64,000 nt of DNA. It comes from an uncultured Verrucomicrobia subdivision 3 bacterium. Its GTDB lineage: Bacteria; Verrucomicrobiota; Verrucomicrobiia; Limisphaerales; UBA11358. The translations under genes were made by a program, and so were the position numbers. Positions 23,551 to 50,442 of the stretch are shown one piece after another (within the stretch, counting starts at the first letter, position 1; each line of letters starts with the position of its first letter). The stretch is from NCBI GenBank assembly GCA_903850425.1, contig CAINLR010000017.1, positions 62,001-126,000 of the forward strand, read 5' to 3'. Below the pieces are notes generated by a model that worked only from the letters and a program-made list of their open reading frames with translations, was not told the origin of the DNA and did not search any database.

Positions 23551-26500
23551 ATGAAACGTATTCCGGCTTCCACCGTGGCCTCACTCATTCTTTTCCTGAC
23601 ACTGACGGCCACTCGCGCCAATCCCGTGCCGGCGCCTGCCGGTTTGGTGGGCTGGTGGAAAGGGGATGGCAATACGCTCGACACAGTGGCGACCAACAAC
23701 GGCGTGAATCAAAACGCCGGCTACACCGCCGGCGTGGTGGGCCAGGCCTTCGCGTTTGACCCGGAGAATCTTCCTTACGGCACTTACTCCGGCATTCAGA
23801 TCGCGGACCAACCGGCGTATGTGCTGACGAATTCGCTGACCATCGAAGGCTGGATTCGCCCCCGTGGCGATGGCTACAACATTTTCTTTCGGGGTGACCA
23901 TCGCGGTGGTTTGGACCCTTACTTTTTAGGCATGTCCTCCGCCAGCAATATCAGCCTGTGGATCACGGACGAAAGCGGCAATAGCGCGACCGTGGGCGCG
24001 CCGATTTCTTACAATATCTGGACCTATGTGGCCGCCACTTGGGACGGCAGTGCTAGCGCAATGAAGATTTATACCAACGGCGTGCAGGCGGCGCAGACCA
24101 CCACCAGCATTCGGCCATTCGGCGCGCTGCAACCCGACCAATCGCCCGGCATCGGCATCGGCAACGTGAATGATGGCGGCAACAATTTTCCATTCGTCGG
24201 CGATGTGGATGAACTTTCCCTGTATAACCGCGCGCTTACCGCGACGGAAATCCAAGGCATCTTCAACGCGGGCAGTTCCGGCAAATTCCTCACAAATAAT
24301 GTGACCGGCATCAGCACCAGCATTCCCGCAATCACACAAGTCAGTCCGACGTCCGGCGTCATTGGCACATTGGTTACTTTGACCGGAACCAACTTTAGTC
24401 CGAGCACTGCGAGCAATGTGGTTTATTTCGGTGCCGTGCGGGCGAGTGTTCTGACCGCCAGTCCAACCTGTCTAACAGTGAGCGTTCCGCCGGGCGCAAC
24501 TTACGGGCCAGTCACTGTCACCACCGGTGGACTCGTGGCGTATTCGAGCCAGCAATTTGAACCCACCTTCGTCGGCAATGGCGCGGCGGTTAATGCCGCC
24601 ACCTTTGCCCCGGGGACGAACATGAATGTGCCGGCCGCCATCACCACGGTGATTGCCGATCTGGACGGTGACGGCAAACCGGATCTGGTGACCGCCAACG
24701 TCTATGCCAACGCGATTTCCATTTACCAAAACGTCGGCATCAATGGCGTGCTCACCCCCGCTTCCTTCGCGGCACCCGTGGTGTTTGCCGTGGGCAGCGG
24801 CAGTGACGATCCCGTGGGTGTGGCCGTGGCGGACGTGGACGGCGACGGCAAACTGGACCTGGTGGTGCCGGATCGCAATAACAACCAACTCGCGATTTTC
24901 CGAAATATTTCCACCGGTGGTATGCTGACCACCAACTCTTTTGCCGCGCCGATATTCTTGGCGGTGGCGGGCGATCCGCGCTGGGTGGTGGTGCGGGATC
25001 TGGATGGGGACGGCCGGCCGGAACTGATCACCGCCAATGCCAGTGGCACCCTCTCGATCCTGCGCAACATCGGAACAGCTGGTTCCCTGACGACCAACTC
25101 CTTTGCCCCGCACCTGGACTTGATTCTGGCCGGCAGCTCCCAAAACCTGGCCGTGGGTGATTTGGATGGCGATGGCAAGCCGGACCTGGCCGTGGCCGAT
25201 AGCAGCGGGTTTATTTCACTATTTCGCAATCAGTGCACGCCCGGAAATATCAGTGCCAGCACGTTTGATGCGCGGGTGGATTTACCAGCCCAAAGCGGAT
25301 CGCTCAACGTAGTGATCGGCGACCTCGATGGTGACGGGCGGCCGGAACTCATCACCACCGCCTATCTGCCTCAGACCCTCTCCGTCTATCGCAACCTGGC
25401 CACGCCGGGTTCGCTGACGACTAATTCTTTTGCCGCGAGCGTGGACTATCCGCTGGCCGGCCGCGGTCACACGATTGCATTGGGCGACCTGAATGGCGAC
25501 GGCAAGCCGGACATCACCGAGGTAACGGAACTGGATAGCGTGATGTCCTTGTTCCAAAACATCGGCAGCGGCAGTTTCACCAACAGCTCCCTGGCCGCAC
25601 GCGTGGACTACGCCGCCGGGTGGAATGCCTGGGGCGTGGCGGTCGGCGACTTGGACGGCGATGGCCGGCCCGATGCCGTTTTTGGCAACGATTACGACAA
25701 TACGTTGACGCTTTACAAAAACGTCACGCCGTTCGGCGCGACCAATACCTGCACCCCTGCGCCGGCGGGATTGGTCGGTTGGTGGCGCGCGGAAAGCAAC
25801 GCCAACGACAGCGTGGGCGGCAACAACGGAACGCTGTCGGCGAGCGGGGCGGTCTATGCGCCGGGCTTGGTGGGGCAGGGCTTCCAGTTCGATGGCACCA
25901 ACGGTTATGTCGCCATTCCCGATGCCGACGCGCTGAAGCCGACGAGCGTGACCTGTGAGGCGTGGGTGTGGTTGGATCCCGCCTTGCCTGCCGGCCGTGG
26001 GGGCGAACAAATTGTGTTCAAGAAAAACACCTGGTCGGCCTGGTTTGAGGGTTACAGCCTGCTAAAACTTACCAAAGACAATGGTGACGGCACGGTTTCC
26101 GACTGCTTTCAGTTTACGGTCTCCCGCAACGGCAACCAAGTCTCCATTATTTCACAGACCATCGCGCAGCGCGGCGTGTGGTATCATGTGGCGGCCACTT
26201 ACGACGGGAACCAGTCCGTGCTTTACGTCAACGGCGTGGCGGAGGCCACGGCCACGCCGGGGTTCCCCTTGGATTATGACACGACGCCCATTTACATCGG
26301 CACCTCGGGCACGTGGCCCCCTTACTTGTCCATGTTTGGTGGCATCATTGACGAGGCGTCCATTTATAATCGCGCCCTGGCGAACAACGAAATCGCCGCC
26401 ATCTACAACGCCGGCAGTGCAGGTAAATGCCAACAACTGCTGGCTCCGGTGATCATCACGCAGCCGACGAATCAGTCCGTTCTCGCCGGCACCACGGTCA

Positions 26501-29500
26501 GTCTCAGCGCCGTCGCCAACGGGTCGCAACCGCTGAGCTACCAGTGGCTTTTCAATGGGACGAATCTCAACGGGGCCACCAGCCCGGCTTTGACGCTGAC
26601 CAATGTTCAAGCTGGGCAGGCAGGCACTTACGTCCTGCTGGTGACTAATAGCTTCGGCTCGGTCGCCAGTTCCAACGCCGTTTTGACGGTGGTGATGCCG
26701 CCCACACCGCCAACGATTGTTTACCAGACACCCAGCCAGGTCGTCTTACTGGGTAACCCCGCCACCTTCAGCGTGAACGTGAGCGGCAGTTCTCCCCTGA
26801 GTTACTCCTGGGAGCGCGACGGTGCCTGGATTGAAAATGCAACCAACTCCAGCTACACGCTGAGTTCCGCGCAATTGATGGATTCGGGCAGCAAGTTTAG
26901 TTGCCTGGTCACTAATCTCTACGGCCAGGCCAGCAGCACCAACGCCACGCTCAAGGTCATTGATACGATTGCGAATGACCTGTGCAGCGGAGCCATCGTC
27001 ATCACGAATGCCAGTTACACCAATGTCCAATCCACCCTCAAGGCCAGTTCGTTTGGCGATCCGGTGCCCGATTGCGTGCCGAACTTCGGTAATGGCGTCT
27101 GGTATCAATTCACCGCGCCGGCCGGCGGTTTGCTGACGGTGGATACGTTCGGCAGTGACTTTGACACCGGCCTGGCCATTTACACCGGCAGCTGTGATTC
27201 CCTGACCGAAGTGGCCTGCAATGATGACGCGGGTGGCATGACTTCGCTGATCACCATCCCAACGACGACAGGCGTAACGTATTCCTTTCTCATCGGTGGC
27301 TACAGCGCGCATTCCGGCAATCTCGTTTTCCACTTGAACCATCTGACGCCCCCGGTATTCGTGGTGCAGCCGACGAATCAATCCGTGGTGGTCAGCAGCA
27401 ATGCCAGCTTTCCGACGTTGGTCACCGGCGCGCAGCCGATCAGCTTCCAATGGTATTTCAACAACACGCTGCTGCTGGATGGCGGTCGCTTCAGCGGTTG
27501 CACAAATGCGACCTTGAACCTGGCCAGCATTGTCCGCGAGGACGCCGGCAGTTATCAGGTCGTGGCCTCAAATTACCTCGGCGTCACCACGAGTTCCGTG
27601 GCGGTGCTGACGCCCATCATTCTGCCGCCGGTCATTGAGCAGCAACCGGGCAACGTGCGCGTGCCTGCCGGTTCCAACGCCACGTTCTCCGTGACGGTGG
27701 CAGGAACGCCACCGTTCAACTTCCAATGGTTTGCGGGTGGAACGCCGCTGGTGGATGACGGGCGGATCGTCGGCGCGACCACGGCCAGCTTGAGTATTTC
27801 CAATCTCACCGCGGCCGATAACGGCAACTACGTCGTGGTGGTGAGCAATGAATCGGGCAGCGATACCAGTTACCCGGCGTCATTAGTCGTGCAAGTGCCA
27901 CCGAGTATGACTCTACCACCCATTGGCCGCTCTGTGCCGCCTGGACTACCGACTACTTTTAACGCGACCGCCTCGGGTAGTCCTTCGCCTAGTTATCAAT
28001 GGCAGTTGAATGGCACAAACATTCCCGGTGCCACGACTTCGAGCTATACCATTGCGGCAGTCGGAACTGACCAACTCGGCAGCTATCGGCTCGTAGCGAG
28101 CAACGAAGTCGGCCTCGCCACGAGCATCGGCGCGCAACTCACGTTTGGACCGGTCGCCGCGTGGGGCCGAAATGCTTCCAACGAATGTCTGCCGCCGCCA
28201 GGATTAAGCAATGTCGTCGGCTTGGCCGGCACCACGGGCGCTAGCTTTGCTGTGCGGACGGATGGAACTGTCGCCGCCTGGGGTTCAGGAAACGCCACCA
28301 ACCTTCCCGCCAGCGCGAGCAATGTCGTGGCGTTGGTGGCCTCTGGCTCCACTGGAAGTTTTGGGAATTATGCGTTGCGCGCGGACGGTCGGGTGGTTAG
28401 TTGGAATGGGACGTCCGCACCAAACTTGAGCAACATCGTCGCGATCGCCGTTGGAAATAATTTCGGCTACGCCTTGCGCGCCGAGGGAACCCTCACCAAC
28501 TGGGGCAACGTCCCGCTCCCGGGTTTTGCCCCCGGGCTAAATCAGATAACCGCTGTTGCCTGCGGATACAACAACCACGCGGTGGCGTTAAGGCGCGACG
28601 GCACGGTCGTCGTCTCGGGCAATGGCGCGGTGACCAATGTGCCCGCTTCCGTGACCAATGTGCTCGCAGTTGCCGCCGGCTACTCTTATGCAATGGCGTT
28701 GCGGGCCGATGGTAAGGTAATCGCGTGGGGCAGCGGCACGATCACCAACCTTCCAGCCAGCCTGACAAACATCGTCGCCATTTCTGGCGGGGGTTATAAT
28801 TCTGATAATTTCGCTTTGGCGATTCGTGCTGACGGCAAAGTCGTGACTTGGGGGGCCAATACTTATGGTGAGTCCACGCCGCCCGCCGCATTATCTAACT
28901 TGGTTTCCATCGCCGGCACCGCCACTCCTTATCACGATCTCGCGCTAGTCAACGACGGCAGCCCGGTCATCATTCATGCGCCCGTCGGTCTCACGGCTTA
29001 CACCGGACGCGACGTGGCGCTGCGCGGCGATGCCGTCGGAGCCCAACCGTTGAGCTATCAATGGTTGCTCAATGGCGTGAACATTCCTGACGCGACCAAT
29101 GCGAGCCTCGTTCTTCCTAACCTCCAGTTCGCCAGCGAGGGCAACTACCAGTTGTTCGTGAGTAACTCTATCAGCACAGCGTTGAGTCTGTCGGCACCGT
29201 TGACTGTTATCAGCAACAACTCACTGACGCTCCTGAGTCAGATCACGGCCTCGGCCACCAATGTGTATCAAGCCGGCAAGGTGACGTTCGGCGGCGCGAC
29301 GGTGCTGGGCAGCGGGCCGCTGCGCTATCAATGGTTCTACTCGACGACCAATAGGAATTACTCCGTCGTTCCCACCGCGACCAATGAGTCGCTGTCTTTG
29401 GACCCGGCGCTGGCAGTGCAATCGGGTTTCTACTACCTCGCGGTCAGCAACCAGTCATTCGGTCTGACCAGCGCGCCGGTGAATGTGCGCGTGCAATTCG

Positions 29501-31551
29501 CCAGGGCGTGGGGATTCCAAGCCGTCAGTAACCCGCCAGTCAATGTTACCAATGCCATCGCCATCGCGACGGGTGGCTATCAAAATTACTATGGACATTA
29601 TTTTGCGCTGGGCGCGGATGGAAAACTGACCTCGTGGGCGAACTATACCACTCGCTATGACGAAACCAATGTCGCGGCCTTGAGCAATTCCTTTGTCACC
29701 GCCATTGCGGCCAGTTCGCAGCACAGTCTGGCGCTCAAGTCGGACGGGACGGTTTATGTTTGGGGCTACGGTCTATCGGGGCAGACCAATCCGCCATCTG
29801 GTTTGAACAATGTCACCGCCATCGCTTGCGGCGGTTTTCACGATCTTGCTTTGAAGGCGGATGGCACGATCGCGGGCTGGGGCGCGACACTGCAATACAA
29901 TTACGGCCAGGCCACCAACAATGCCGCCGCCACCAATGTCGTTGCGATCGCCGCTGGCAATCAACACAGCCTGGTTTTGCGCGCCGACGGCAGCGTGGTC
30001 GCCTGGGGCTATGGTTCGGATGGCTCAACAACCATCCCACCCGCCGCCACCAACGTCATCGCTATTGCCGCCGGTTCCGGCTTCAGCGCGGCGCTGCGGG
30101 CGAATGGCACGGTCGTGCAATGGGGCACCGGCATCGCGCAGTATCCAACTCCGGTGGCATTGAGCAACGTGGTGGCGATTGCAGGTTCATCCACCCATTG
30201 CGCGGCTTTGAAGAGCGACGGCTCGGTGGTCACCTGGGGCTATGAATACACCGGCTTGGCGTCGAACAATCTGCCGGCTGATCTGGCCAACGTCTCCGCC
30301 ATCACGAGTGGTGGCGACCATGACTTCGCCTTGCTCGGCACCCGCGCTCCGGCGTTCACCATCCAGCCGTGGAACCGGACGATTCCCCTTACGACGACCA
30401 GTGTGTGGTTCGTCGGCAAATGCGCCGGTGTCCAACCCATCCGTTATCAATGGCGGCTCAACGGCACGAATCTGCCCAGTGCCACCAATGACATCCTGAA
30501 TGTTTTTGCCGCGCGAACCGTCCAGGGCCAGCCCATTCCGCTGCCGTCGGGCGTTTACCAACTCGTGGTCAGCAACGCCTACGGCATCGCGGTCAGCAAA
30601 CCCGCCAAACTCAGCGTGGTCATCCCGCTGGCCGACGCGCTGGATACGCCGACGAACACCAAGGACGGCACTGCGCTCTACAACTGGATCACCACCGGTA
30701 ATGCGCCCTGGTTCGGCGAGACTAATGTCACCCACGATGGCGTGGACGCCGCGCGCAGCGGCGGCATCGGCGCGTTGCAGGAAACGATTTTGCAAACGAC
30801 CGTCGGCACGAATTGGTCGGGTCGCTACACGTTCTGGTGGAAAGTTTCCTCAGAGCAGTTCTTCGACACGCTGGAATTCCGCGTGAACGGCGTTGTGCAG
30901 ACGAGTATTTCTGGCGAAGTGGACTGGCAGCAGGTGAGTGTTCCCGTCGCCGCCGGCACGAACCTATTGCAATGGCGCTATTCCAAAGACGCCTCCTACG
31001 ACGTCGGCCAGGACGCCGGCTGGGTGGATCAATTTGTGTATGTGCCCGACGCGCCCTTCATTCTGGTTCACCCCCAGCCCGCGATTCAGACCGTGAATCT
31101 GGGCGCGACGGTGTCCTGGTCCGTTTCGGCCACGGGCGCACCGCTGTTGCGCTACGTGTGGCGGCAGAACGGAACTATCGTCGGTGGCAACAGTTCCACG
31201 CTGACCCTGAACAATGTCAGCCGGGCACAAAATGGAACCTACTCGGTGACGGTCACCAATGCCGGCGGCAGCACCGTCAGCAGCGACGCGGTTTTGAAAG
31301 TGCTCGTGCCGCAAGTCCTGGGCACGCCGAAATTGCTGCCGGACGGAACCTTCCAACTGCTGTCCACCGATCCGAACGGCGGCTTGCTCTCCCCCGCCGA
31401 CCTGGCCAACTTTGAAGCTCAGGCCAGCACGAACTTGTTCAATTGGGTGACGCTGCCCAGTGCCTTGAGCCTGACGAATGGCGCGTTATTGTTGCAGGAT
31501 TCGGGACCGACCAATTATCCGGCGCGCTATTATCGCATCCTCGAACACTGA
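23551..31551 (+). CDS. Giant secreted mosaic protein: LamG, IPT, FG-GAP, Ig-like and RCC1-like modules
   Basis: 2666 residues with a signal peptide (~1-23). Modules in order, approximate: LamG (28-245); IPT/TIG (260-335); seven FG-GAP/VCBS units (350-725) each with D-x-D-G-D-G-(K/R)-P-(D/E)-L, a Ca-binding type; a second LamG (735-955); two Ig-like (965-1140); a pre-peptidase C-terminal-like domain (1140-1265); three Ig-like (1270-1530); an RCC1-like propeller (1530-1800) with (A/V)-L-(R/K)-x-D-G-x-V-x-x-W-G units; Ig-like (1805-1980); a second RCC1-like propeller (1985-2265); Ig-like (2265-2350); a jelly-roll-like domain (~2352-2500); Ig-like (2500-2585); and a C-terminal domain ending Y-Y-R-I-L. 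No enzyme domain is visible. Likely an adhesin or polysaccharide-binding scaffold outside the cell. It is monocistronic as far as can be seen. Confidence 0.9.
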   Translation: MKRIPASTVASLILFLTLTATRANPVPAPAGLVGWWKGDGNTLDTVATNNGVNQNAGYTAGVVGQAFAFDPENLPYGTYSGIQIADQPAYVLTNSLTIEGWIRPRGDGYNIFFRGDHRGGLDPYFLGMSSASNISLWITDESGNSATVGAPISYNIWTYVAATWDGSASAMKIYTNGVQAAQTTTSIRPFGALQPDQSPGIGIGNVNDGGNNFPFVGDVDELSLYNRALTATEIQGIFNAGSSGKFLTNNVTGISTSIPAITQVSPTSGVIGTLVTLTGTNFSPSTASNVVYFGAVRASVLTASPTCLTVSVPPGATYGPVTVTTGGLVAYSSQQFEPTFVGNGAAVNAATFAPGTNMNVPAAITTVIADLDGDGKPDLVTANVYANAISIYQNVGINGVLTPASFAAPVVFAVGSGSDDPVGVAVADVDGDGKLDLVVPDRNNNQLAIFRNISTGGMLTTNSFAAPIFLAVAGDPRWVVVRDLDGDGRPELITANASGTLSILRNIGTAGSLTTNSFAPHLDLILAGSSQNLAVGDLDGDGKPDLAVADSSGFISLFRNQCTPGNISASTFDARVDLPAQSGSLNVVIGDLDGDGRPELITTAYLPQTLSVYRNLATPGSLTTNSFAASVDYPLAGRGHTIALGDLNGDGKPDITEVTELDSVMSLFQNIGSGSFTNSSLAARVDYAAGWNAWGVAVGDLDGDGRPDAVFGNDYDNTLTLYKNVTPFGATNTCTPAPAGLVGWWRAESNANDSVGGNNGTLSASGAVYAPGLVGQGFQFDGTNGYVAIPDADALKPTSVTCEAWVWLDPALPAGRGGEQIVFKKNTWSAWFEGYSLLKLTKDNGDGTVSDCFQFTVSRNGNQVSIISQTIAQRGVWYHVAATYDGNQSVLYVNGVAEATATPGFPLDYDTTPIYIGTSGTWPPYLSMFGGIIDEASIYNRALANNEIAAIYNAGSAGKCQQLLAPVIITQPTNQSVLAGTTVSLSAVANGSQPLSYQWLFNGTNLNGATSPALTLTNVQAGQAGTYVLLVTNSFGSVASSNAVLTVVMPPTPPTIVYQTPSQVVLLGNPATFSVNVSGSSPLSYSWERDGAWIENATNSSYTLSSAQLMDSGSKFSCLVTNLYGQASSTNATLKVIDTIANDLCSGAIVITNASYTNVQSTLKASSFGDPVPDCVPNFGNGVWYQFTAPAGGLLTVDTFGSDFDTGLAIYTGSCDSLTEVACNDDAGGMTSLITIPTTTGVTYSFLIGGYSAHSGNLVFHLNHLTPPVFVVQPTNQSVVVSSNASFPTLVTGAQPISFQWYFNNTLLLDGGRFSGCTNATLNLASIVREDAGSYQVVASNYLGVTTSSVAVLTPIILPPVIEQQPGNVRVPAGSNATFSVTVAGTPPFNFQWFAGGTPLVDDGRIVGATTASLSISNLTAADNGNYVVVVSNESGSDTSYPASLVVQVPPSMTLPPIGRSVPPGLPTTFNATASGSPSPSYQWQLNGTNIPGATTSSYTIAAVGTDQLGSYRLVASNEVGLATSIGAQLTFGPVAAWGRNASNECLPPPGLSNVVGLAGTTGASFAVRTDGTVAAWGSGNATNLPASASNVVALVASGSTGSFGNYALRADGRVVSWNGTSAPNLSNIVAIAVGNNFGYALRAEGTLTNWGNVPLPGFAPGLNQITAVACGYNNHAVALRRDGTVVVSGNGAVTNVPASVTNVLAVAAGYSYAMALRADGKVIAWGSGTITNLPASLTNIVAISGGGYNSDNFALAIRADGKVVTWGANTYGESTPPAALSNLVSIAGTATPYHDLALVNDGSPVIIHAPVGLTAYTGRDVALRGDAVGAQPLSYQWLLNGVNIPDATNASLVLPNLQFASEGNYQLFVSNSISTALSLSAPLTVISNNSLTLLSQITASATNVYQAGKVTFGGATVLGSGPLRYQWFYSTTNRNYSVVPTATNESLSLDPALAVQSGFYYLAVSNQSFGLTSAPVNVRVQFARAWGFQAVSNPPVNVTNAIAIATGGYQNYYGHYFALGADGKLTSWANYTTRYDETNVAALSNSFVTAIAASSQHSLALKSDGTVYVWGYGLSGQTNPPSGLNNVTAIACGGFHDLALKADGTIAGWGATLQYNYGQATNNAAATNVVAIAAGNQHSLVLRADGSVVAWGYGSDGSTTIPPAATNVIAIAAGSGFSAALRANGTVVQWGTGIAQYPTPVALSNVVAIAGSSTHCAALKSDGSVVTWGYEYTGLASNNLPADLANVSAITSGGDHDFALLGTRAPAFTIQPWNRTIPLTTTSVWFVGKCAGVQPIRYQWRLNGTNLPSATNDILNVFAARTVQGQPIPLPSGVYQLVVSNAYGIAVSKPAKLSVVIPLADALDTPTNTKDGTALYNWITTGNAPWFGETNVTHDGVDAARSGGIGALQETILQTTVGTNWSGRYTFWWKVSSEQFFDTLEFRVNGVVQTSISGEVDWQQVSVPVAAGTNLLQWRYSKDASYDVGQDAGWVDQFVYVPDAPFILVHPQPAIQTVNLGATVSWSVSATGAPLLRYVWRQNGTIVGGNSSTLTLNNVSRAQNGTYSVTVTNAGGSTVSSDAVLKVLVPQVLGTPKLLPDGTFQLLSTDPNGGLLSPADLANFEAQASTNLFNWVTLPSALSLTNGALLLQDSGPTNYPARYYRILEH

Positions 31552-31728
31552 GGCCCCGACGACCACTCGTTGACGGTGAACTGGCTTTGGCTCTGGTTTA
31601 AAACGGCGGGCTCATTTTTGGTTAGCTCGCCAATGAGAAGTTTGGTAACTTAAGAGCATTAGCAAACGTCCGGCTAGACAATCGAGGCTGGCAACGAGAC
31701 TATGCACACACAACAACCACATAATCAT

Positions 31729-32277
31729 ATGAACAAAATCAAATCCCTCCTCTTGATCGCAGCGGTCATCGCCAGTGCCACGCCGTTGCTGGCGCAACAA
31801 AAACGGGTCAGCCCGCACGAAACCATCAGCGCGGTGATTGACGGCAGCCGGGTGACGGTCGTTTATGGTCGCCCATATTCCAAAGACCCCAAGAGCGGCG
31901 AGGTCCGCAAAATCTGGGGCGGTCTGGTGCCTTACGGCAAAGTCTGGCGCACGGGCGCGGATGAAGCCACCACGCTCACCACGCAGAAGCCCATCGTGAT
32001 TGGCGAGACCACGATCCCAGCCGGCGCTTACACGCTGTTCACCTTGCCGCAGGAAGACGGCTCGGCCAAGTTGATCTTCAACAAACAGCTCGGCCAATGG
32101 GGCACCCAATATGACGAGAAGCAGGATCTCGTGCGGATTGATTTGAAGAAAGAAGCGCTGGAAAAGCCGGCAGACCAACTGGTGCTGGCCGTTTCCAAAA
32201 ATCCGGCGGGCGGCGGCGTTTTGAAAATTTCATGGGAGAGCACCCAGTATTCAGCAGCGTTTACGGTGCAGAAATAA
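31729..32277 (+). CDS. DUF2911 family exported protein, copy 1
   Basis: 182 residues from the ATG at 31729, which opens directly onto a signal peptide (M-N-K-I-K-S-L-L-L); an ATG at 31702 would add nine His/Gln-rich residues. The DUF2911 core has V-x-Y-G-R-P, I-W-G-G-L-V-P-Y-G-K-V-W-R-T-G-A, P-A-G-A-Y-T-L-F-T-L-P, and the late N-K-Q-L-G-Q-W-G-T-Q-Y-D-E-K. The family is periplasmic and of unknown function. The next gene encodes a paralogue 18 bp downstream, so this is a tandem pair. Confidence 0.88.
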   Translation: MNKIKSLLLIAAVIASATPLLAQQKRVSPHETISAVIDGSRVTVVYGRPYSKDPKSGEVRKIWGGLVPYGKVWRTGADEATTLTTQKPIVIGETTIPAGAYTLFTLPQEDGSAKLIFNKQLGQWGTQYDEKQDLVRIDLKKEALEKPADQLVLAVSKNPAGGGVLKISWESTQYSAAFTVQK

Positions 32278-32295: not shown

Positions 32296-33138
32296 ATGAA
32301 CTCCAAAACATTCCGCTGGATTTCCACTTGCGCCTGTGGACTGATGCTGGCCACCAGCGCGCTGGCGGTTGACTTCCCAGCCGCAAGTCCTGCCTGCACG
32401 TTGAAACAGCGCGTCGGCCTGACGGACGTCGAGATCGTTTACTCGCGTCCCAGCATGAAGGACCGCCAGATTTTCGGCAACGTTGTCCCGTTTGGAGCGG
32501 TCTGGCGCACGGGCGCGAACGCCGCGACCAAGATCACCTTTAGCACGCCGGTGAAACTGAATGGCACGGACATCGCCGCCGGTGCTTACGCGCTCTACAC
32601 GATTCCCGGCGAAAATGAATGGACCATTATCCTCAACAAGGGCGTGGGGAAATCCGGCACCCAATACGACGAAAAGGAGGATGTCATTCGCTTTAAGACG
32701 ACGGCCATCAACTGGGATACGGCCATCGAGACGTTTACCATCGAGTTCAATCAGATTCGCGATGAGTCGGCGGTCATCAATCTGGTGTGGGAAAAAACTG
32801 TCGTCCCGATCAAGGTGGACCTGGATGTCACCGCCAAGCTGCTGCCGCAAATTGACGCGGCGATGGCGGCGGAGGGTGGCAACAAACCCTACTTTCAAGC
32901 GGCCGCGTTTTACTATGACCACGGCCAGGATTTGTCCAAGGCCAAGGAATGGGTCGAGGCAGCCGTCAAGCAACGCGAGGCGTATTACATCGTGCACCTA
33001 AAGGCAAAAATCCTCGCCAAACTTGGCGATAAGGAAGGGGCCATCGCCGCCGCCAACCGCTCCATGGTGCTGGCGAAGGAGAGCAGGGACAGCGCCTACG
33101 TCAAGTTGAACGAGGACCTGATCTCCAGCCTCAAGTGA
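32296..33138 (+). CDS. DUF2911 family exported protein, copy 2, with TPR-like tail
   Basis: 280 residues with a signal peptide (~1-24, ending A-L-A). The DUF2911 core (~25-190) repeats the landmarks of the upstream copy: Y-S-R-P-S, V-P-F-G-A-V-W-R-T-G-A-N, A-A-G-A-Y-A-L-Y-T-I-P and G-T-Q-Y-D-E-K. Unlike copy 1 it carries a helical C-terminal extension (~190-280) with Ala-rich TPR-like pairs. The stop codon overlaps the GTG start of the PIG-L gene (GTGA), so translation is probably coupled. First member of the four-gene overlapping chain. Confidence 0.88.
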   Translation: MNSKTFRWISTCACGLMLATSALAVDFPAASPACTLKQRVGLTDVEIVYSRPSMKDRQIFGNVVPFGAVWRTGANAATKITFSTPVKLNGTDIAAGAYALYTIPGENEWTIILNKGVGKSGTQYDEKEDVIRFKTTAINWDTAIETFTIEFNQIRDESAVINLVWEKTVVPIKVDLDVTAKLLPQIDAAMAAEGGNKPYFQAAAFYYDHGQDLSKAKEWVEAAVKQREAYYIVHLKAKILAKLGDKEGAIAAANRSMVLAKESRDSAYVKLNEDLISSLK

Positions 33139-35660
33139 ACATTCGGGCTGTTTCCGTTTCATTAGCACCGGGCTTCAGCCCGGTGAAACTGACCGCAAAC
33201 ATCAGAAACCGTTTCCACGGTTTTCTGGTGGCGCTGGTGCTTGCGGGCGCGGTCGCCCACGCCGAGCCACCAACCAACTCCGCGTCGGAAATGCTTCAGG
33301 AATTAAATGGTTTTCGCGAGTTGGGCAGCGTCCTTTATGTCGCCGCCCATCCCGACGATGAGAACACTCAGCTCATTACTTACCTCGCGCGCGGTCGCCA
33401 TTATCGCACCGCCTATCTTTCGCTCACGCGCGGCGACGGCGGGCAGAACGTGCTCGGCCCGGAATTCGGCGAACAGTTGGGCGTCATTCGCACGCAGGAA
33501 CTGCTGGCGGCGCGGCGGCTCGATGGCGGCCGACAATTTTTCACGCGCGCGATGGACTTCGGCTTTTCCAAGGACTATCTCGAAACTCTCAACATCTGGA
33601 ACAAGGACGAAGTTGTGTCGGATATCGTCCGCGTGATCCGCACGTTTCGGCCTGACGTGGTCATCACGCGCTTTTCACCCCAACCCAGCGGCACGCATGG
33701 CCATCACACGGCTTCCGCCGTGTTGGCGTTGGAGGCCTTCAAACTTGCCGGCGATGCCAAAGCCTTTCCCGAACAGCAATTGCCGACTTGGCAACCGAAA
33801 CGCATTTTGATGAACAGCCGTGGCGGCGAGAACGCGCTGCAAATCGAAGCCAACGGCACCGATCCGGTCCTCAACGAACCGTTCGGCGCCATCGCTGGGC
33901 GCAGCCGCTCGATGCACAAATCGCAAGGCTTCGGCAATTTCGGCGGCGGTCGTGGCGGCGCGCGGGCGGAATCGTTTCAACTGCTCGCTGGCGACCCGGC
34001 GACCAAGGACATTCTCGACGGCGTGGACACGACATGGAACCGCGTGCCGGGCGGCGTGGAAATTGGAAAACTCGCCGATGAAATTATTTCCCAGTTCAAT
34101 CCGCAAGACCCGTCGGCAATTGTTCCAGCGTTGTTGAAATTGAAAAGCAATTTGGCGGCGCTGAGGTCAACGGATTCCATCCTCATTGAGAAGGCGTCGC
34201 AACTGGATCGCATTCTGCAAAGTTGCGTTGGACTTTCAGTCCTGACCACCATCGCGAATTCCGAAGTGGTTCCTGGTGAAGAATTGAAATTGCACAGCAC
34301 TGCGATCGTGCGTGCGACCATTCCCGTGCGCTGGATCGGAACGCGCCATACAGCCCTCAAAGAAGAATTTACTTCGACCGCCGCGCTGAATTTGATCTCC
34401 GATCAACCTGCGAGTCGCGACGAAACCGTGCGGTTGCCGGCCACCACGCCGTTGAGCCAGCCTTACTGGCTGCGGCAAGAAAGCACGGCGGGCATGTTCC
34501 GCGTGGCCGACACGGCGCTGATTGGCCAGCCGGAAAATCCACCCGCATTTCCCCTTGAACAAGTTTTTGAAATCGGCGGCCAAACGCTGGTGATTCCCGA
34601 CGAACCCGTGCAAGCCGACACGGCCACGGCGAAAATTGAATCACGCCGCCGGCTCGAAGTGGTTCCGCCGGTGACGCTCCGCTTCGCCTCCGCAGTCAAT
34701 GTGTTTGCCCCGAACACCACGCGGAAGATCGAAGTTGAAATCACCGCCGCGCGCGCCAACTCTGCTGGCACGCTCACGCTAAATGCGCCCGCCGATTGGA
34801 AGATCACGCCCGCCACCAAATCCTTTGAGTTGGCTGGAGTCGGCGAAAAGAAGCAGTTTATCTTTACCGTTTCCGCGCCCGCAAAAACCAGCACGGCATC
34901 CATCAATGCCTCGGCGAAGATTGGCGACGCCACCTTTGGCACCCAGCGCATTGAGATTGCCTACAAACACATTCCCTTCCAATTGCTTCAACCTCCGGCG
35001 CGGATCAAATTGGTCAGCTTTAATCTGGCGATCCGTGGCAAGAACGTCGGCTATCTACCTGGTGCCGGCGACAGCGTGGCGGAGGCGATTTCGCAAATGG
35101 GCTACGAAGTCACGACGCTCACTGGCGCGGATCTCACGACGAACCGACTGATGGACTTTGACGCCTTGGTCATCGGCGTTCGCGCGTTCAATGTGCGCAC
35201 AGATCTCACGGCTCATTTGCCCGCGCTGTTGGCCTTTGTTGAAGCAGGCGGTAATCTCATCGAACAATACAACCGGCCCGGAAACGATTCTAAAACCGAT
35301 CAGTTTGGTCCTTACAACCTGCGCTTGTCGGGCGACCGGGTGACGGATGAAACAGCGACGATGACTTTTCTCGCGCCGGATCATCCGGTGTTGAACATGC
35401 CAAACAAGATCACGAGTGCGGATTTTGACGGCTGGGTGCAGGAGCGCGGCATCTATTTTCCCAATCAGTGGGATGATCACTTCACGCCCATTCTGGCGTG
35501 CAACGATCCGGGCGAAGCGCCGCTGAAAGGCAGTCTGCTCGTTGCCAAGTATGGCAAAGGCTATTTCGTTTATACCGGCCTGGTCTTTTTCCGGGAACTT
35601 CCCGCCGGCGTCCCGGGCGCTTATCGCTTGTTTGCGAATTTAATTTCCATCGGCAAATGA
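33135..35660 (+). CDS. Secreted PIG-L (LmbE-like) deacetylase fused to a GATase1/ThuA-like domain
   Basis: 841 residues from the GTG at 33135. A signal-like hydrophobic segment lies at ~28-43. The PIG-L domain (~60-300) has the zinc motif A-H-P-D-D-E (His72, Asp74, Asp75) and the later H-G-H-H (~190). The middle (~400-600) is beta-rich and NEW3-like. The C-terminal part (~610-841) resembles class I glutamine amidotransferase/ThuA-like domains (D-A-L-V-I-G-V-R-A-F-N; G-G-N-L-I-E-Q-Y-N), without a clear catalytic Cys. It probably removes N-acetyl groups from an extracellular or periplasmic amino sugar compound. The codons for residues ~8-29 coincide with a dispersed repeat, so the annotated start is uncertain. 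It is coupled to both neighbours by 4-nt overlaps. Confidence 0.85.
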   Translation: MNIRAVSVSLAPGFSPVKLTANIRNRFHGFLVALVLAGAVAHAEPPTNSASEMLQELNGFRELGSVLYVAAHPDDENTQLITYLARGRHYRTAYLSLTRGDGGQNVLGPEFGEQLGVIRTQELLAARRLDGGRQFFTRAMDFGFSKDYLETLNIWNKDEVVSDIVRVIRTFRPDVVITRFSPQPSGTHGHHTASAVLALEAFKLAGDAKAFPEQQLPTWQPKRILMNSRGGENALQIEANGTDPVLNEPFGAIAGRSRSMHKSQGFGNFGGGRGGARAESFQLLAGDPATKDILDGVDTTWNRVPGGVEIGKLADEIISQFNPQDPSAIVPALLKLKSNLAALRSTDSILIEKASQLDRILQSCVGLSVLTTIANSEVVPGEELKLHSTAIVRATIPVRWIGTRHTALKEEFTSTAALNLISDQPASRDETVRLPATTPLSQPYWLRQESTAGMFRVADTALIGQPENPPAFPLEQVFEIGGQTLVIPDEPVQADTATAKIESRRRLEVVPPVTLRFASAVNVFAPNTTRKIEVEITAARANSAGTLTLNAPADWKITPATKSFELAGVGEKKQFIFTVSAPAKTSTASINASAKIGDATFGTQRIEIAYKHIPFQLLQPPARIKLVSFNLAIRGKNVGYLPGAGDSVAEAISQMGYEVTTLTGADLTTNRLMDFDALVIGVRAFNVRTDLTAHLPALLAFVEAGGNLIEQYNRPGNDSKTDQFGPYNLRLSGDRVTDETATMTFLAPDHPVLNMPNKITSADFDGWVQERGIYFPNQWDDHFTPILACNDPGEAPLKGSLLVAKYGKGYFVYTGLVFFRELPAGVPGAYRLFANLISIGK
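33157..33220. repeat. Dispersed repeat copy inside the 5' end of the PIG-L gene
   Basis: The 29 bases at 33157-33185 (TTTCATTAGCACCGG, then CTTCAGCCCGGTG after one base) match the right end of the element at 50171-50199 (other strand) at 27 of 29 positions. Further similarity follows around 33206-33220 (AACCGTTTCCACGG against AGCCGTTTCAACGC). The core forms a CACCGGGC / GCCCGGTG hairpin. Confidence 0.75.
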
Positions 35661-35806
35661 ACTCGTTGCCGCCCGATCCGGTCACCGATGATAAAAGTCC
35701 CGGCGTGCCAGGCTTTCGCACCTGGCGCGGAGTTTATGTTTTTGTCTTCGCCGTTTTCGTTTTGGTGGTGGCCGTGCTCGCTGTTTTTTCGCGCTGGTTC
35801 GCATGA
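35657..35806 (+). CDS. 49-residue single-pass membrane peptide, candidate symporter accessory subunit
   Basis: The ATG overlaps the PIG-L stop (ATGA at 35657-35660) and its own TGA overlaps the ATG of the symporter gene (ATGA at 35803-35806), so it is held in place by two 4-nt overlaps. The product has a polar, Pro-rich cytoplasmic half (~1-24, ending R-T-W-R-G) and one strong hydrophobic helix (~25-46), then R-W-F-A. I do not recognise a family. Some SSS symporters are encoded with a small membrane partner just upstream (for example DUF485/YjcH with ActP, or YhdT with PanF). Those are longer and have two helices, so this would be a different type. Confidence 0.7.
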   Translation: MNSLPPDPVTDDKSPGVPGFRTWRGVYVFVFAVFVLVVAVLAVFSRWFA

Positions 35807-37527
35807 ACTCTCTCGACTGGATCGTGCTGCTGGTGACGATGGTGGGCATTGCGGCCTATGGCGCTTGGCATACGCGTCACACCAGCCAGCTTGATACTTA
35901 TCTCAAAGGCAGCAAGACCACGCGCTGGGGGACCATCGGTATTTCGGTGATGGCCACGCAGGCCAGCGCCATTACATTTCTCTCCATTCCGGGACAAGGT
36001 TTTGAAAGCGGCCTTGGTTTTGTGCAAAACTATTTCGGCCTGCCGCTCGCGCTCATAATTGTATGTGCCGTCTTTCTGCCGATCTACCGCAAGCTCGGCG
36101 TTTACACCGCTTACGAGTTTCTCGGCCAGCGTTTCGATGCCAAGACTCGCCTGCTCGGCGCGGGACTTTTTCTACTGCAACGCGGCCTCGCTGCGGGCGT
36201 CACGATTTATGCGCCGGCAATTATTCTGGCGACCGTGCTCGGCTGGCGGCTCGATTTGACGATCATCGGCACAGGCCTGCTGGTGATTATTTACACCGTC
36301 ACCGGTGGCAGCGAAGCGGTGAGTCTCACGCAAAAATGGCAGATGGGCGTCATTTTCGGTGGCATGATCACCGCGTTTTTCATCTTGCTCGCGCGACTCC
36401 CCGACGGCCTTGGTTTCGGCGGTGCCGCGCATCTTGCGGGCGCGATGGGCAAACTTCAGGCGGTGGATTTCTCACTTAATCCCGATAAGCGCTACACGCT
36501 CTGGACCGGTTTGCTCGGCGGAACTTTTCTGATGCTCTCCTATTTCGGCACCGATCAATCGCAAGTGCAACGCTATATCGGCGGGGCCGCACTGCGCGAA
36601 GGCCGGCTAGGCCTGATGTTTAATGCGCTGCTAAAAATTCCGATGCAGTTTTTCATCCTGCTGCTCGGCGCACTGCTATTTGTTTTTTACCAATTCCAAC
36701 CCGCGCCGGTTTTTTACAATCGCGTCGAATGGCAGCAACATGCGACCGGCTCGAATGCTGCGACCTTTCGCGCGCTTGAAGAGAGGAACGACACACTGCA
36801 CGCCGTGAAACAGGAAAAGATCCGCGCGTGGCTCGTGGCTCGCAATCGCGGCGACGCCATCGCCGAGCCGGTCGCGCGCTCCGCCATGCTGGCAGCACAG
36901 GCCGCGACCGAGACCCTCCACAACGAAGCCAAGGCTGCCTTGTCCGCCGCCGATCCGCTCGCGAAAACCAAAGATTCCGATTATGTCTTCATCGGTTTTA
37001 TTCTCGACCAATTGCCGCACGGCGTCATCGGCCTGCTCATCGCCGTGATGATCGCCGCCGCGCTCGGCTCGAAGGCGGGTGAACTCAATGCGCTTGGCAC
37101 CACCACGACCATTGACCTCTGGCGACATTTCCGACCGCTCGCCGCGCATGACGAGGCGCGCAATGTCCGCGCCGCGAAATGGTTCACCGCGCTGTGGGGA
37201 TTGGTGGCGATCGCATTCGCCCTGTTCGCGGGCTTCGCGGAAAACTTGATCGAAGCCATCAATATCATCGGCTCGATTTTTTATGGCGTCGTGCTGGGGA
37301 TTTTCCTTGCGGCCTTTTTTCTGAAACACGTCGGCGGCACGGCGGTATTCTGGGCGGCCGTTGCGGCGCAAGTAATCATCTTCGCCCTCTTTTTTCTACG
37401 GCATCGTTTTCCGATGCTCGATATTTCCTATCTCTGGTATAACCTCATTGGCTGTGCGGCGTGTGTGCTGTTGAGTCTGATGTTGCAAGCGTTGATTCCG
37501 GCACGAAGAATGAACCAAGAAACTTAA
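35803..37527 (+). CDS. Sodium:solute symporter (SSS family)
   Basis: 574 residues with about 13 hydrophobic segments. SSS landmarks: an early L-D-T-Y-L-K-G-S-K-T-T-R-W loop; the first core helix with T-Q-A-S-A-I-T-F-L-S-I-P-G; Y-E-F-L-G-Q-R-F; and the family signature G-T-D-Q-S-Q-V-Q-R-Y-I-G followed by R-L-G-L. A charged, Ala-rich soluble insertion (~300-390) sits between two helices. It takes up an organic solute with Na+; the solute is probably linked to the product of the PIG-L deacetylase encoded upstream (inference from overlapping genes). Its TAA stop lies inside the left end of a dispersed repeat, so the original C-terminus may have differed. Confidence 0.92.
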   Translation: MNSLDWIVLLVTMVGIAAYGAWHTRHTSQLDTYLKGSKTTRWGTIGISVMATQASAITFLSIPGQGFESGLGFVQNYFGLPLALIIVCAVFLPIYRKLGVYTAYEFLGQRFDAKTRLLGAGLFLLQRGLAAGVTIYAPAIILATVLGWRLDLTIIGTGLLVIIYTVTGGSEAVSLTQKWQMGVIFGGMITAFFILLARLPDGLGFGGAAHLAGAMGKLQAVDFSLNPDKRYTLWTGLLGGTFLMLSYFGTDQSQVQRYIGGAALREGRLGLMFNALLKIPMQFFILLLGALLFVFYQFQPAPVFYNRVEWQQHATGSNAATFRALEERNDTLHAVKQEKIRAWLVARNRGDAIAEPVARSAMLAAQAATETLHNEAKAALSAADPLAKTKDSDYVFIGFILDQLPHGVIGLLIAVMIAAALGSKAGELNALGTTTTIDLWRHFRPLAAHDEARNVRAAKWFTALWGLVAIAFALFAGFAENLIEAINIIGSIFYGVVLGIFLAAFFLKHVGGTAVFWAAVAAQVIIFALFFLRHRFPMLDISYLWYNLIGCAACVLLSLMLQALIPARRMNQET

Positions 37528-37685
37528 CCACGGATGGATATTGATAAACACGGATTAGGCAAAACGCCGCGGCCCAGCGAACGCGGAGAAATGCAGAGAG
37601 CAGAAATTTCTACGACTCTTTGCGACCTCTGCGCCTCTGCGTTTGGTTTTGTCATCCGTGCTCATCCGTGTCCATCCGTGGTTAA
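37524..37685. repeat. 162-bp intergenic repeat with 15-bp perfect terminal inverted repeats
   Basis: The left end TTAACCACGGATGGA (37524-37538) is the exact reverse complement of the right end (37671-37685). The interior has further ATCCGTG units (three in tandem near 37654-37680), CACGGAT near the left end, and a CTCTGCGCCTCTGCG block. I recall this as a widespread non-coding family in Verrucomicrobiota and related phyla. It is mobile-like in structure but encodes no protein. The left end supplies the symporter stop codon. Confidence 0.88.
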
Positions 37686-37709
37686 TGAAACCTTTCGAGC
37701 CACCAACCC

Positions 37710-39192: not shown

Positions 39193-40332
39193 ATGGACTC
39201 CGCGCGTCCATTGAAGATTGGCATCACCTGCTATCCCTCCGTGGGCGGGAGCGGCATTCTCGCCTCAGCGCTTGGCGAGGAACTGGCGCAGCGCGGACAC
39301 GAAGTTCATTTCATCAGCTACGAACGTCCGTTCCGCATGCCCGCAAGTGCGCCGCGCCTGTTTTTTCATCCGGTTGTCATCAATGATTACGGCCTGTTCA
39401 AGTATCCTGATTACACGTTGCCGCTTTCAGTCAAGATGGCGGAAGTGAGCCGGGATCATCAGCTCGATATCCTTCACGTTCATTATGCCGTGCCCCATGC
39501 GACGGCCGCTATTTTAGCCCGCTCTATGCTGCCTCTGGAGCAGCAACCGCGTGTCGTCACCACGCTGCATGGGACGGACACAACCTTGCTCGGCGCGGAT
39601 CCGGGCTACGGACCGGCGATTCATCACGCCCTGACGCATTCAGATGCCGTGACGACGGTTTCCAATTTTCTGCAGCTGGAGACGCAGCGCGTGCTCGGCT
39701 TTGACGGGCCGATCGAGGTCATTCACAATTTTTTTGAACCGCGGCCGGCGCGGCGCTCGCGCGAGGAGGTGCGCCGCGAACTGGGGTTGCGCGACGAAGT
39801 GATGATTCTCCACGCCTCCAATCTGCGTCCCTTGAAACGAGTGGATCTGCTCCTTGAAACAGTTGCCCGCATCCGCCCGCGCGAGACGTTTAAGCTCGTG
39901 ATTCTCGCCGGCGGAAAGTTTGCGCCCTTCGCCGCTGATGTGCACCGCCTGGGCCTGGATGATCGAGTCATCGTGCGGGAAAACGTCTTGGACATTGAAG
40001 ATTATCTGCAAGCCGCCGATCTGGGATTATTCACGTCCGAAACGGAAAGCTTTTGTTTAAGCATCCTTGAAGCCATGTGTTTTGCCTGCCCCAGCGTTGC
40101 GACGCGCGTGGGCGGAATTCCCGAAGTCATCGAAGACAATGTGACTGGACGGCTCGTGCCTTTTGGGGATGCTGACCAACTGGCACGGGCTGCCAAGAAC
40201 TTGATTGAAGACGCCGCGCTCCGGGTGAAGCTTGGCCGCGCGGCCCAAGCCAGCGCCCGCGAACAGTTTTCGGCCGAGGTGATCGTGCCGCGCTACGAAG
40301 CCCTTTATCGTCGCGTCTGCCGCCAGGATTAG
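39193..40332 (+). CDS. bshA: N-acetyl-alpha-D-glucosaminyl L-malate synthase BshA
   Basis: 379 residues, GT4-type glycosyltransferase with two Rossmann domains. Diagnostic BshA features: [11 protein letters not shown] near the N-terminus; [25 protein letters not shown]; and T-L-H-G-T-D. The C-terminal domain has [14 protein letters not shown] and V-G-G-I-P-E-V-I, the E-x7-E nucleotide-sugar motif. It joins UDP-GlcNAc to L-malate, the first step of bacillithiol synthesis. It starts immediately after the bshB1 stop, so the operon order is bshC-like, bshB1, bshA. Confidence 0.93.
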
Positions 40333-50005: not shown

Positions 50006-50442
50006 AAAGTTGCAGGGCGTATTTTCAAAAATCCATCGGGCCAGCTATTGTCTCATCAGCACCGGGCTTCGGCCCGGTGACGTGGGCAATGCCGGTCTCG
50101 GTAGCCGCTTCAGCGGCTTTCAGCGGTTCGGAAAAGGCGTTGAAACGGCTCGCCCGACGACGAGGACCGCACACCGCGCTGAAGTCCGGTGCTAATGAAA
50201 TGCGTGGCGGAAATGTAAAATCCATACCGGACGGCTAACGCCCTGCTTTCCAAAGGAATTTTCGCAACAAATGGCTGCTAGTCAAGGCTACTCTGCCACT
50301 GCCTGAAGCTACTCGTTTACCACCCATTCCGACTCGGTTACTGAAGGATTCACTGAAGGTCTTTGGCCCTTAATTTCAAGAAAAGTAATTGAGGCCACGT
50401 CCACCCAAGGAGATTGCTCCTTAGCCAATGCTGCCATGGGAT
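50006..50442. other. Intergenic gap upstream of the AraC gene
   Basis: 437 bp between two minus-strand genes. It contains the 149-bp inverted-repeat element (50051-50199) and a small hairpin AAGGAG/CTCCTT (50407-50422) without a T-tract, about 20 bases beyond the end of the giant-protein operon. No gene was seen. Confidence 0.5.
50051..50199. repeat. 149-bp element with ~29-bp imperfect terminal inverted repeats
   Basis: The left end (50051-50079) and the reverse complement of the right end (50171-50199) share about 23 of 29 bases, centred on AGCACCGG and CGGTG. The interior has further short stems (GCCGCTTCAGCGGC). A partial copy lies at 33157-33220. No ORF. REP/MITE-like in structure. Confidence 0.75.

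Follow-up and report, generated by a model that had tools for sequence, protein, structure and literature searches.

A conserved single-helix peptide encoded beside an SSS-type symporter in Verrucomicrobiota and Bacteroidota: a proposed accessory subunit

Small partner proteins of transporters

YjcH (DUF485) and YhdT (DUF997) are small membrane proteins encoded directly before the genes of ActP and PanF, which belong to the sodium solute symporter (SSS) family; both are longer proteins with two helices. Other small membrane proteins have a single helix, among them MgtS and MgtU, as well as MAP17, which lies N-out in the membrane. Single-helix subunits of SSS proteins are known structurally from the human SGLT–MAP17 complexes. 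In SGLT2 the single helix of MAP17 contacts transmembrane helix 13 (TM13), and co-expression of MAP17 strongly raises activity, as stated in an excerpt of PMC10803289. Proteins of the MgtS, MgtU and AcrZ type, of 28–49 amino acids and in the case of AcrZ with a single helix, also bind a transporter, their partners according to an excerpt of PMC10710835 being P-type, PitA or RND transporters and not SSS proteins. Here we describe a peptide of 49 amino acids that is encoded directly before an SSS symporter gene in an uncultured Verrucomicrobia subdivision 3 bacterium (assembly GCA_903850425.1, contig CAINLR010000017.1, positions 62,001–126,000). This stretch of 64,000 nucleotides is called the window, and all coordinates given below refer to it. 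The peptide is probably an accessory subunit of the symporter that acts in trans; its physical binding, its effect on transport, the substrate and direction of transport and the role of the PIG-L family hydrolase encoded upstream are what we infer.

Similar to SGLT2 (SLC5A2) with MAP17 (PDZK1IP1), the window encodes an SSS symporter and a putative single-helix partner, and the predicted fold of the symporter matches SGLT2–MAP17 entries. The peptide has one predicted helix, at about residues 26–44, and its gene is paired with an SSS gene; a pairing of the proteins is proposed. Unlike MAP17, the window peptide is placed N-in by the positive-inside rule, and the likeness is one of arrangement, not of sequence. 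The sequence-only reading of the window had drawn the analogy to YjcH–ActP and YhdT–PanF. It holds for the position of a small membrane protein gene directly before an SSS gene, but the window peptide is a single-helix protein and two alignments of its relatives (A2, 25 members; A5, 26 members) match neither of the two Pfam families.

The window peptide itself has no match in Pfam or NCBIfam, and scans of both alignments gave a few single stray matches, the best with an E value of 0.01. Up to E 0.1, the Pfam matches of the window peptide, A2 and A5 include none to DUF485, DUF997, DUF4212 or MAP17, and the family scans revealed no sequence relation to MgtS, MgtU or AcrZ. Among the titles and abstract starts found in the literature, none describes this peptide and none joins PIG-L, a solute symporter and an operon. 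As far as we could search, no family name exists for this small protein: it is new as a family, and of a kind, the small accessory subunits, that is already known.

Conservation and selection of the peptide

The relatives examined were gathered initially with PIG-L and peptide searches and later with the symporter alignment A1 in named genomes. From the 54 loci of the former set, 31 were chosen for the presence of the symporter and an upstream gene, the window copy included; left out were L001, L002 and L021–L025 (no symporter match in the stretch) and L038–L045 and L047–L054 (no symporter match). All 31 carry the peptide within about 210 nt before the SSS gene. The symporter-based search yielded 80 named loci, which by their titles include Verrucomicrobiota, Phycisphaerae (L116, L120), Obscuribacterales (L129, L134), Fulvivirga (L125) and another member of the Bacteroidota (L131). 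The peptide is upstream in 76; in the remaining four the sequence begins less than 60 bases ahead of the symporter gene. The symporter is also present in 95 of 247 genomes drawn from the Bacteroidota, the phylum of Fulvivirga. Among 92 further, mainly Bacteroidota loci (L137–L228; three repeat genomes of the named-genome search), 86 have the peptide just upstream, although three of these peptides (L206, L207, L215) are divergent and were recognised by eye only. Removal of duplicates left 195 distinct symporter N-termini, and without L077, which lies at a contig end, 194 evaluable distinct loci: the peptide is found just upstream of the SSS gene in 188, unlinked at about 15 kb in four, and not found in two. 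Short membrane-spanning frames directly before SSS genes, for which the sequence-only reading had proposed a search in relatives, are present in nearly all evaluable loci.

Of 218 loci, 206 have a frame with the motif W-x3-Y followed by a membrane helix ahead of the SSS start, versus 38 of 2818 similar-sized control windows elsewhere in the same loci, which rules out a chance open reading frame. The 218 loci are those of 221 that include the symporter start, as L082, L127 and L132 begin inside the symporter. The 12 loci without the motif comprise L068, where the peptide is present and the motif was missed through a script artefact, L077 at its contig end, L191, L206, L207 and L215 with a divergent peptide, L211, L217, L218 and L221 with an unlinked one, and L160 and L202, where none was found. 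A peptide search in 288 genomes of the window's phylum gave a match at E ≤0.1 in 42, of which 13, including the window's own genome, reach E ≤1e-4. Among the 29 genomes with weaker matches only G315 (locus L046) has the symporter, and the other matches were taken for chance. All 18 symporter genomes of this set carry the peptide, in three cases recognised by eye. The window's own genome has a second weak match (L002, E 0.6) with one stop inside and no symporter match beside it, which was also taken for chance.

In most loci the peptide core consists of W-x3-Y and then one hydrophobic helix. Of 180 distinct cores, 144 have exactly 27 residues from the W to the C-terminus and 151 have V at position W+7; the search pattern itself demanded the W and an aromatic residue at W+4. 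Lysine and arginine are commoner before the helix than after it in 156 of the 180 cores, equal in 24 and never fewer, and by the positive-inside rule the topology is therefore predicted to be N-in, C-out.

Purifying selection on the peptide codons, proposed as a check by the sequence-only reading, is indicated by a ratio of nonsynonymous to synonymous divergence (dN/dS) of 0.128 for the peptide core in close pairs (67 pairs from 48 loci, not independent of each other; proportion of synonymous differences, pS, 0.525). For residues 1–280 of the symporter the same pairs give a dN/dS of 0.031 (pS 0.584), so constraint acts on the peptide as well, but more weakly. In the next divergence band the ratio for the peptide is 0.211. 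An earlier, broader set of 2031 pairs, whose synonymous sites were nearly saturated, had given a median ratio of 0.57, with 1809 pairs below 1; the close pairs took its place.

Linkage of the peptide to the symporter

The peptide tracks the symporter and not the PIG-L gene. In L036, L037, L099 and L110 the gene found before the peptide is DUF2911, and 25 loci (L204–L228) have no same-strand upstream PIG-L match, yet an adjacent peptide is present in 21 of them. The sequence-only reading had suggested that the PIG-L deacetylase may produce the transported compound. As a general rule this is not supported, since in the same loci the pair of peptide and symporter is kept without PIG-L.

In four Bacteroidota genomes (L211, L217, L218, L221) the peptide lies about 15 kb upstream of the SSS gene on the same contig and strand (E 7e-17 to 6e-16). 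These separated copies show a pooled pS of 0.224 and a proportion of nonsynonymous differences (pN) of 0.032, and no SSS gene was found within 1.5 kb on either side of the moved peptides. Two loci of this type were read, L256 and L257. In both, a block of genes about 15 kb long, nearly all on the opposite strand, separates the symporter from the peptide and the gene of a 219-amino-acid protein next to it. By Pfam, the 219-amino-acid protein is WbqC in L256; in the relative L216 a similar gene, the peptide and the symporter are consecutive, with no block between them. According to Pfam the block in L256 contains an Na_sulph_symp transporter, a PcRGLX-like protein, a PIG-L protein and a member of the glucosamine-6-phosphate isomerase family, and by eye a sigma factor and outer-membrane-type genes are also seen (L256, 1–19701; L257, 1–19701). 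No natural fusion of peptide and SSS protein was noticed in the loci, in which no search aimed at fusions was made.

The symporter

The symporter belongs to the SSS/SLC5 family by its PF00474 score (Table 1) and has a LeuT-type SSS fold according to Foldseek. Its nearest solved relatives by sequence are SMVT, SMCT1, NIS, SiaT and the SGLTs, and the folds nearest to its AlphaFold2 model (predicted local distance difference test, pLDDT, 82.8) are SiaT, NIS, SGLT2–MAP17 and SMCT1. A mostly helical insert around residues 299–392 is 91–101 residues long in all 63 aligned symporters. We place it between TM7 and TM8, probably on the periplasmic side; by SGLT topology we take the loop between these helices to be periplasmic. 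That the insert faces the exported proteins of the operon is a conjecture. No match to the symporter was found in plasmid records at E 1e-60. Symporters 59–73% identical to that of the window occur in records titled Akkermansia, Rokuibacteriota, Cyanobacteria and Gamma- or Alphaproteobacteria (L075, L078, L084, L104, L123, L124, L127), some of which may be misbinned or misnamed contigs.

Bacillithiol-type genes downstream of the symporter

The operon continues past the symporter with a gene for a 257-amino-acid protein, a BshB1-like gene and bshA, all overlooked in the sequence-only reading. Among the 80 named loci, many of which end early, matches to the 257-amino-acid protein, BshB1 and BshA occur in 69, 60 and 62, respectively. 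The corresponding numbers are 48, 46 and 48 for the 53 loci whose sequence extends 4.5 kb or more beyond the symporter, those lacking the 257-amino-acid protein being L071, L074, L079, L115 and L125. The bsh genes are thus linked to the peptide–symporter pair in most loci of the window's kind. With starts extrapolated from the alignments, the SSS gene and the gene of the 257-amino-acid protein overlap or sit within 6 nt of each other in 39 of 48 loci.

The 257-amino-acid protein has no match in Pfam or NCBIfam, including PF10079 (BshC) up to E 10, and no match by sequence in the PDB. The only PDB hit of its AlphaFold2 model (pLDDT 94.2) with E ≤0.001 in Foldseek is BshC of Bacillus subtilis (4wbd; E 5.4e-10, TM-score 0.62 on the query, 13% identity, root mean square deviation 6.4). 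The predicted core fold is similar to that of 4wbd, but the protein has about half its length (257 versus 540 residues) and, as said, lacks the BshC family match. On the basis of this model it is a candidate for the third enzyme, in the role of BshC, of a bacillithiol-type synthesis, that is, a putative ligase of cysteine and GlcN-malate. The BshA protein scores above the equivalog cut-off of TIGR03999, and the deacetylase stays below that of TIGR04001 (BshB1), though this is its best match (Table 1). The half-size BshC-like protein is possibly the more important finding of the locus.

No canonical BshC was detected in 40 genomes (the window's own and 39 relatives, several of them incomplete). 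Of the 288 genomes of the window's phylum, 18 have the symporter, 17 the BshC-like protein and two (G104, G184) a canonical BshC, and each of the 18 symporter genomes carries one or the other kind of BshC; in G184 the canonical protein is encoded on another contig. For the association between the symporter and a BshC of either kind a Fisher test gives p ~1e-27, a value that treats related genomes, and the genes of one linked operon, as independent. In an excerpt of a 2018 paper (PMC6282198) no low-molecular-weight thiol is documented or predicted for Verrucomicrobia and Planctomycetes, and among the titles and abstract starts of later literature no bacillithiol report for these groups was found.

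Proposed function and alternatives

The mechanism that we propose starts with synthesis of the peptide beside the symporter, mostly from overlapping genes, as a single-span protein oriented N-in, C-out. Its one helix would pack on the symporter in the inner membrane and would either assist folding and stability or share in transport. The DUF2911 and PIG-L proteins, whose signal peptides were recognised by eye, would be exported and act in the periplasm. The unit of symporter and peptide might take up, together with Na+, a compound related to the thiol, such as bacillithiol itself, one of its conjugates or a product of its breakdown. In the cytoplasm, a bacillithiol-like thiol could be made by BshA, BshB1 and the half-size BshC-like enzyme. 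Of this scheme the subunit step has the best support; the substrate and the part played by PIG-L are guesses, and that PIG-L feeds the symporter with the transported compound is doubtful.

The new symporter subunit suggested by the sequence-only reading has gained support in that the peptide is conserved, under selection, nearly universal beside the symporter and persistent where unlinked; the binding that a subunit implies is proposed. Covariation between peptide and symporter in 183 pairs (effective number of sequences, Neff, 135) gave scattered signals only. Two features of the genomes weigh against a subunit. In both loci read with a moved peptide (L256, L257) the peptide adjoins an opposite-strand gene of another transporter family (Na_sulph_symp, tested with Pfam in L256), so its partner there could be something other than the symporter. 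Moreover, L160 and L202 have PIG-L right before the SSS gene and no peptide was found, apart from a weak hit in one of them (E 0.022) with a stop inside. Adjacent PIG-L and SSS genes without a peptide frame, which the sequence-only reading had named as contrary evidence, thus exist and are rare (2 of 194), and because of these two symporter genomes the peptide is not strictly obligatory. The pattern of conservation would equally fit a small regulator or protector that attaches to the symporter and governs its turnover without being a working part of the transport cycle, comparable to MgtS and MgtU of magnesium transporters; small proteins that bind and stabilise transporters are described in an excerpt of PMC10710835. 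We regard this as rather unlikely, as the pairing is near-universal in the examined loci and mostly within one operon, which suggests a constant part, although the data do not cleanly separate the two readings. The frame might instead be a mere leader that hands ribosomes to the symporter start by translational coupling, with irrelevant amino acids, and such a leader would have the 4-nt overlap between peptide stop and symporter start that 141 of 206 loci show. Conservation of the amino acids and a dN/dS of 0.13 speak against it, and because the peptide stays intact and selected about 15 kb away from the symporter, where a coupling-only leader is expected to decay, a pure leader is very unlikely. 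About as improbable is that the peptide serves the PIG-L hydrolase, as its membrane anchor or its partner: of the 149 loci with PIG-L upstream, 68 have a 4-nt overlap of the two genes, but the peptide–SSS pair is kept in the loci described above that have no upstream PIG-L (L036, L037, L099, L110 and 21 of L204–L228).

For the subunit proposal the nature of the substrate is a separate matter, and whether the system is tied to a bacillithiol-like thiol appears evenly balanced. It is quite possible that the bsh genes stand beside the symporter only through inheritance of one cluster and that the symporter carries a nutrient unrelated to thiols, such as a carboxylate or an amino sugar. Structurally characterised relatives transport sialic acid, iodide, vitamins, monocarboxylates or sugars; the Bacteroidota loci show no bsh match of the window type beside the pair, except for L138 from a Pelagicoccus genome, and some of them have other neighbours. 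Among the genomes, G104 speaks against a thiol link in having BshC and no symporter match; the Bacteroidota are uninformative, with BshC in 242 of 247 genomes whether or not they have the symporter (the five without it are not among the 95 with the symporter). An unrelated nutrient is harder to reconcile with the presence of BshC of either kind in 18 of 18 symporter genomes of the window's phylum, including G184 with its gene on another contig, and with the close spacing, at most 6 nt or an overlap, of the SSS and BshC-like genes in 39 of 48 loci.

If the thiol link holds, Verrucomicrobiota and Planctomycetota would gain a bacillithiol-like thiol with its own importer. The linked BshC-like gene makes it testable which thiol these phyla use. 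A widespread bacterial pair would also be a simple system for asking what single SSS-bound helices do. So short a peptide, for which there is no family model, may easily be missed by annotation, and a symporter expressed alone could then fail. More tentatively, the peptide may found a family of single-helix subunits that has so far gone unrecognised, with lengths from 33 to about 90 residues, and that serves one SSS subfamily in Verrucomicrobiota, Planctomycetota, Obscuribacterales and Bacteroidota. For the first three groups the same reading would place it in a thiol operon not yet described, with a half-size BshC in place of the canonical protein and a two-part symporter that salvages the thiol or its conjugates.

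Gene organization of the locus

Table 1. Features of the window from the DUF2911 genes to bshA
Feature	Position	Strand	Basis
DUF2911 protein, 191 aa, likely exported (signal peptide by eye)	31702..32277	+	Pfam PF11138, 146.8 bits
DUF2911 protein with TPR-like tail, 280 aa, likely exported (by eye)	32296..33138	+	Pfam PF11138, 181.8 bits
PIG-L family hydrolase, 841 aa, likely exported (by eye)	33135..35660	+	PF02585, 62.7 bits (cut-off 28.2)
Single-span membrane peptide, 49 aa, proposed symporter accessory subunit	35657..35806	+	Conservation, selection, helix, charges
SSS (SLC5-type) sodium symporter, 574 aa	35803..37527	+	PF00474 (SSF), 114.1 bits (cut-off 22.8)
Spacer with CATCCGTG repeats, between SSS and BshC-like gene	37528..37709	.	
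Half-size BshC-like protein, 257 aa	37710..38483	+	Predicted fold
BshB1-like deacetylase, 248 aa	38446..39192	+	Best NCBIfam match TIGR04001, 127.5 bits (cut-off 182.5)
BshA, N-acetylglucosaminyl L-malate synthase	39193..40332	+	TIGR03999 equivalog, 401.4 bits (cut-off 273.7)

Four genes of the operon are joined by three 4-nt overlaps, GTGA at 33135–33138 and ATGA at 35657–35660 and 35803–35806, all of which were read in the sequence as the sequence-only reading had reported. The better conserved junctions are those of peptide and SSS gene and of PIG-L and peptide, with the overlap counts given above, whereas an overlap of DUF2911 and PIG-L is possible in 15 of 44 relatives. The last-named junction is the least safe of the three: the GTG start of PIG-L at 33135 is doubtful, because its first codons cross a palindrome at 33168–33183 and the likely signal peptide, recognised by eye, starts later. 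An in-frame GTG at 33183, just before this plausible signal peptide, may be the true start. The fixed stoichiometry that had been read from the tight coupling does not follow from gene overlaps alone.

The 841-amino-acid PIG-L protein belongs to the PIG-L hydrolases, scoring above the PF02585 cut-off. Its nearest NCBIfam models are Mca (TIGR03446) with 43.5 of the 277.15 bits and BshB1 (TIGR04001) with 31.9 of the 182.5 bits that define these equivalogs, so both scores fall far short. Matches to the DUF2911 protein encoded at 31702..32277 are present in 54 of the 80 named SSS loci, and the TPR matches in the second DUF2911 protein are all below their Pfam cut-offs.

Some further elements were seen in the window. 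The palindrome at the 5′ end of the PIG-L frame, CCGGGCTTCAGCCCGG, recurs with one mismatch at 50062–50077; about 0.01 are expected by chance in the window. The CATCCGTG repeats occupy 37653–37680 in the spacer between the SSS and BshC-like genes, which in most relatives overlap or are very closely spaced. Upstream of the operon, a reading frame of 2666 amino acids at 23551–31551 appears by eye to encode a large, likely secreted repeat protein.

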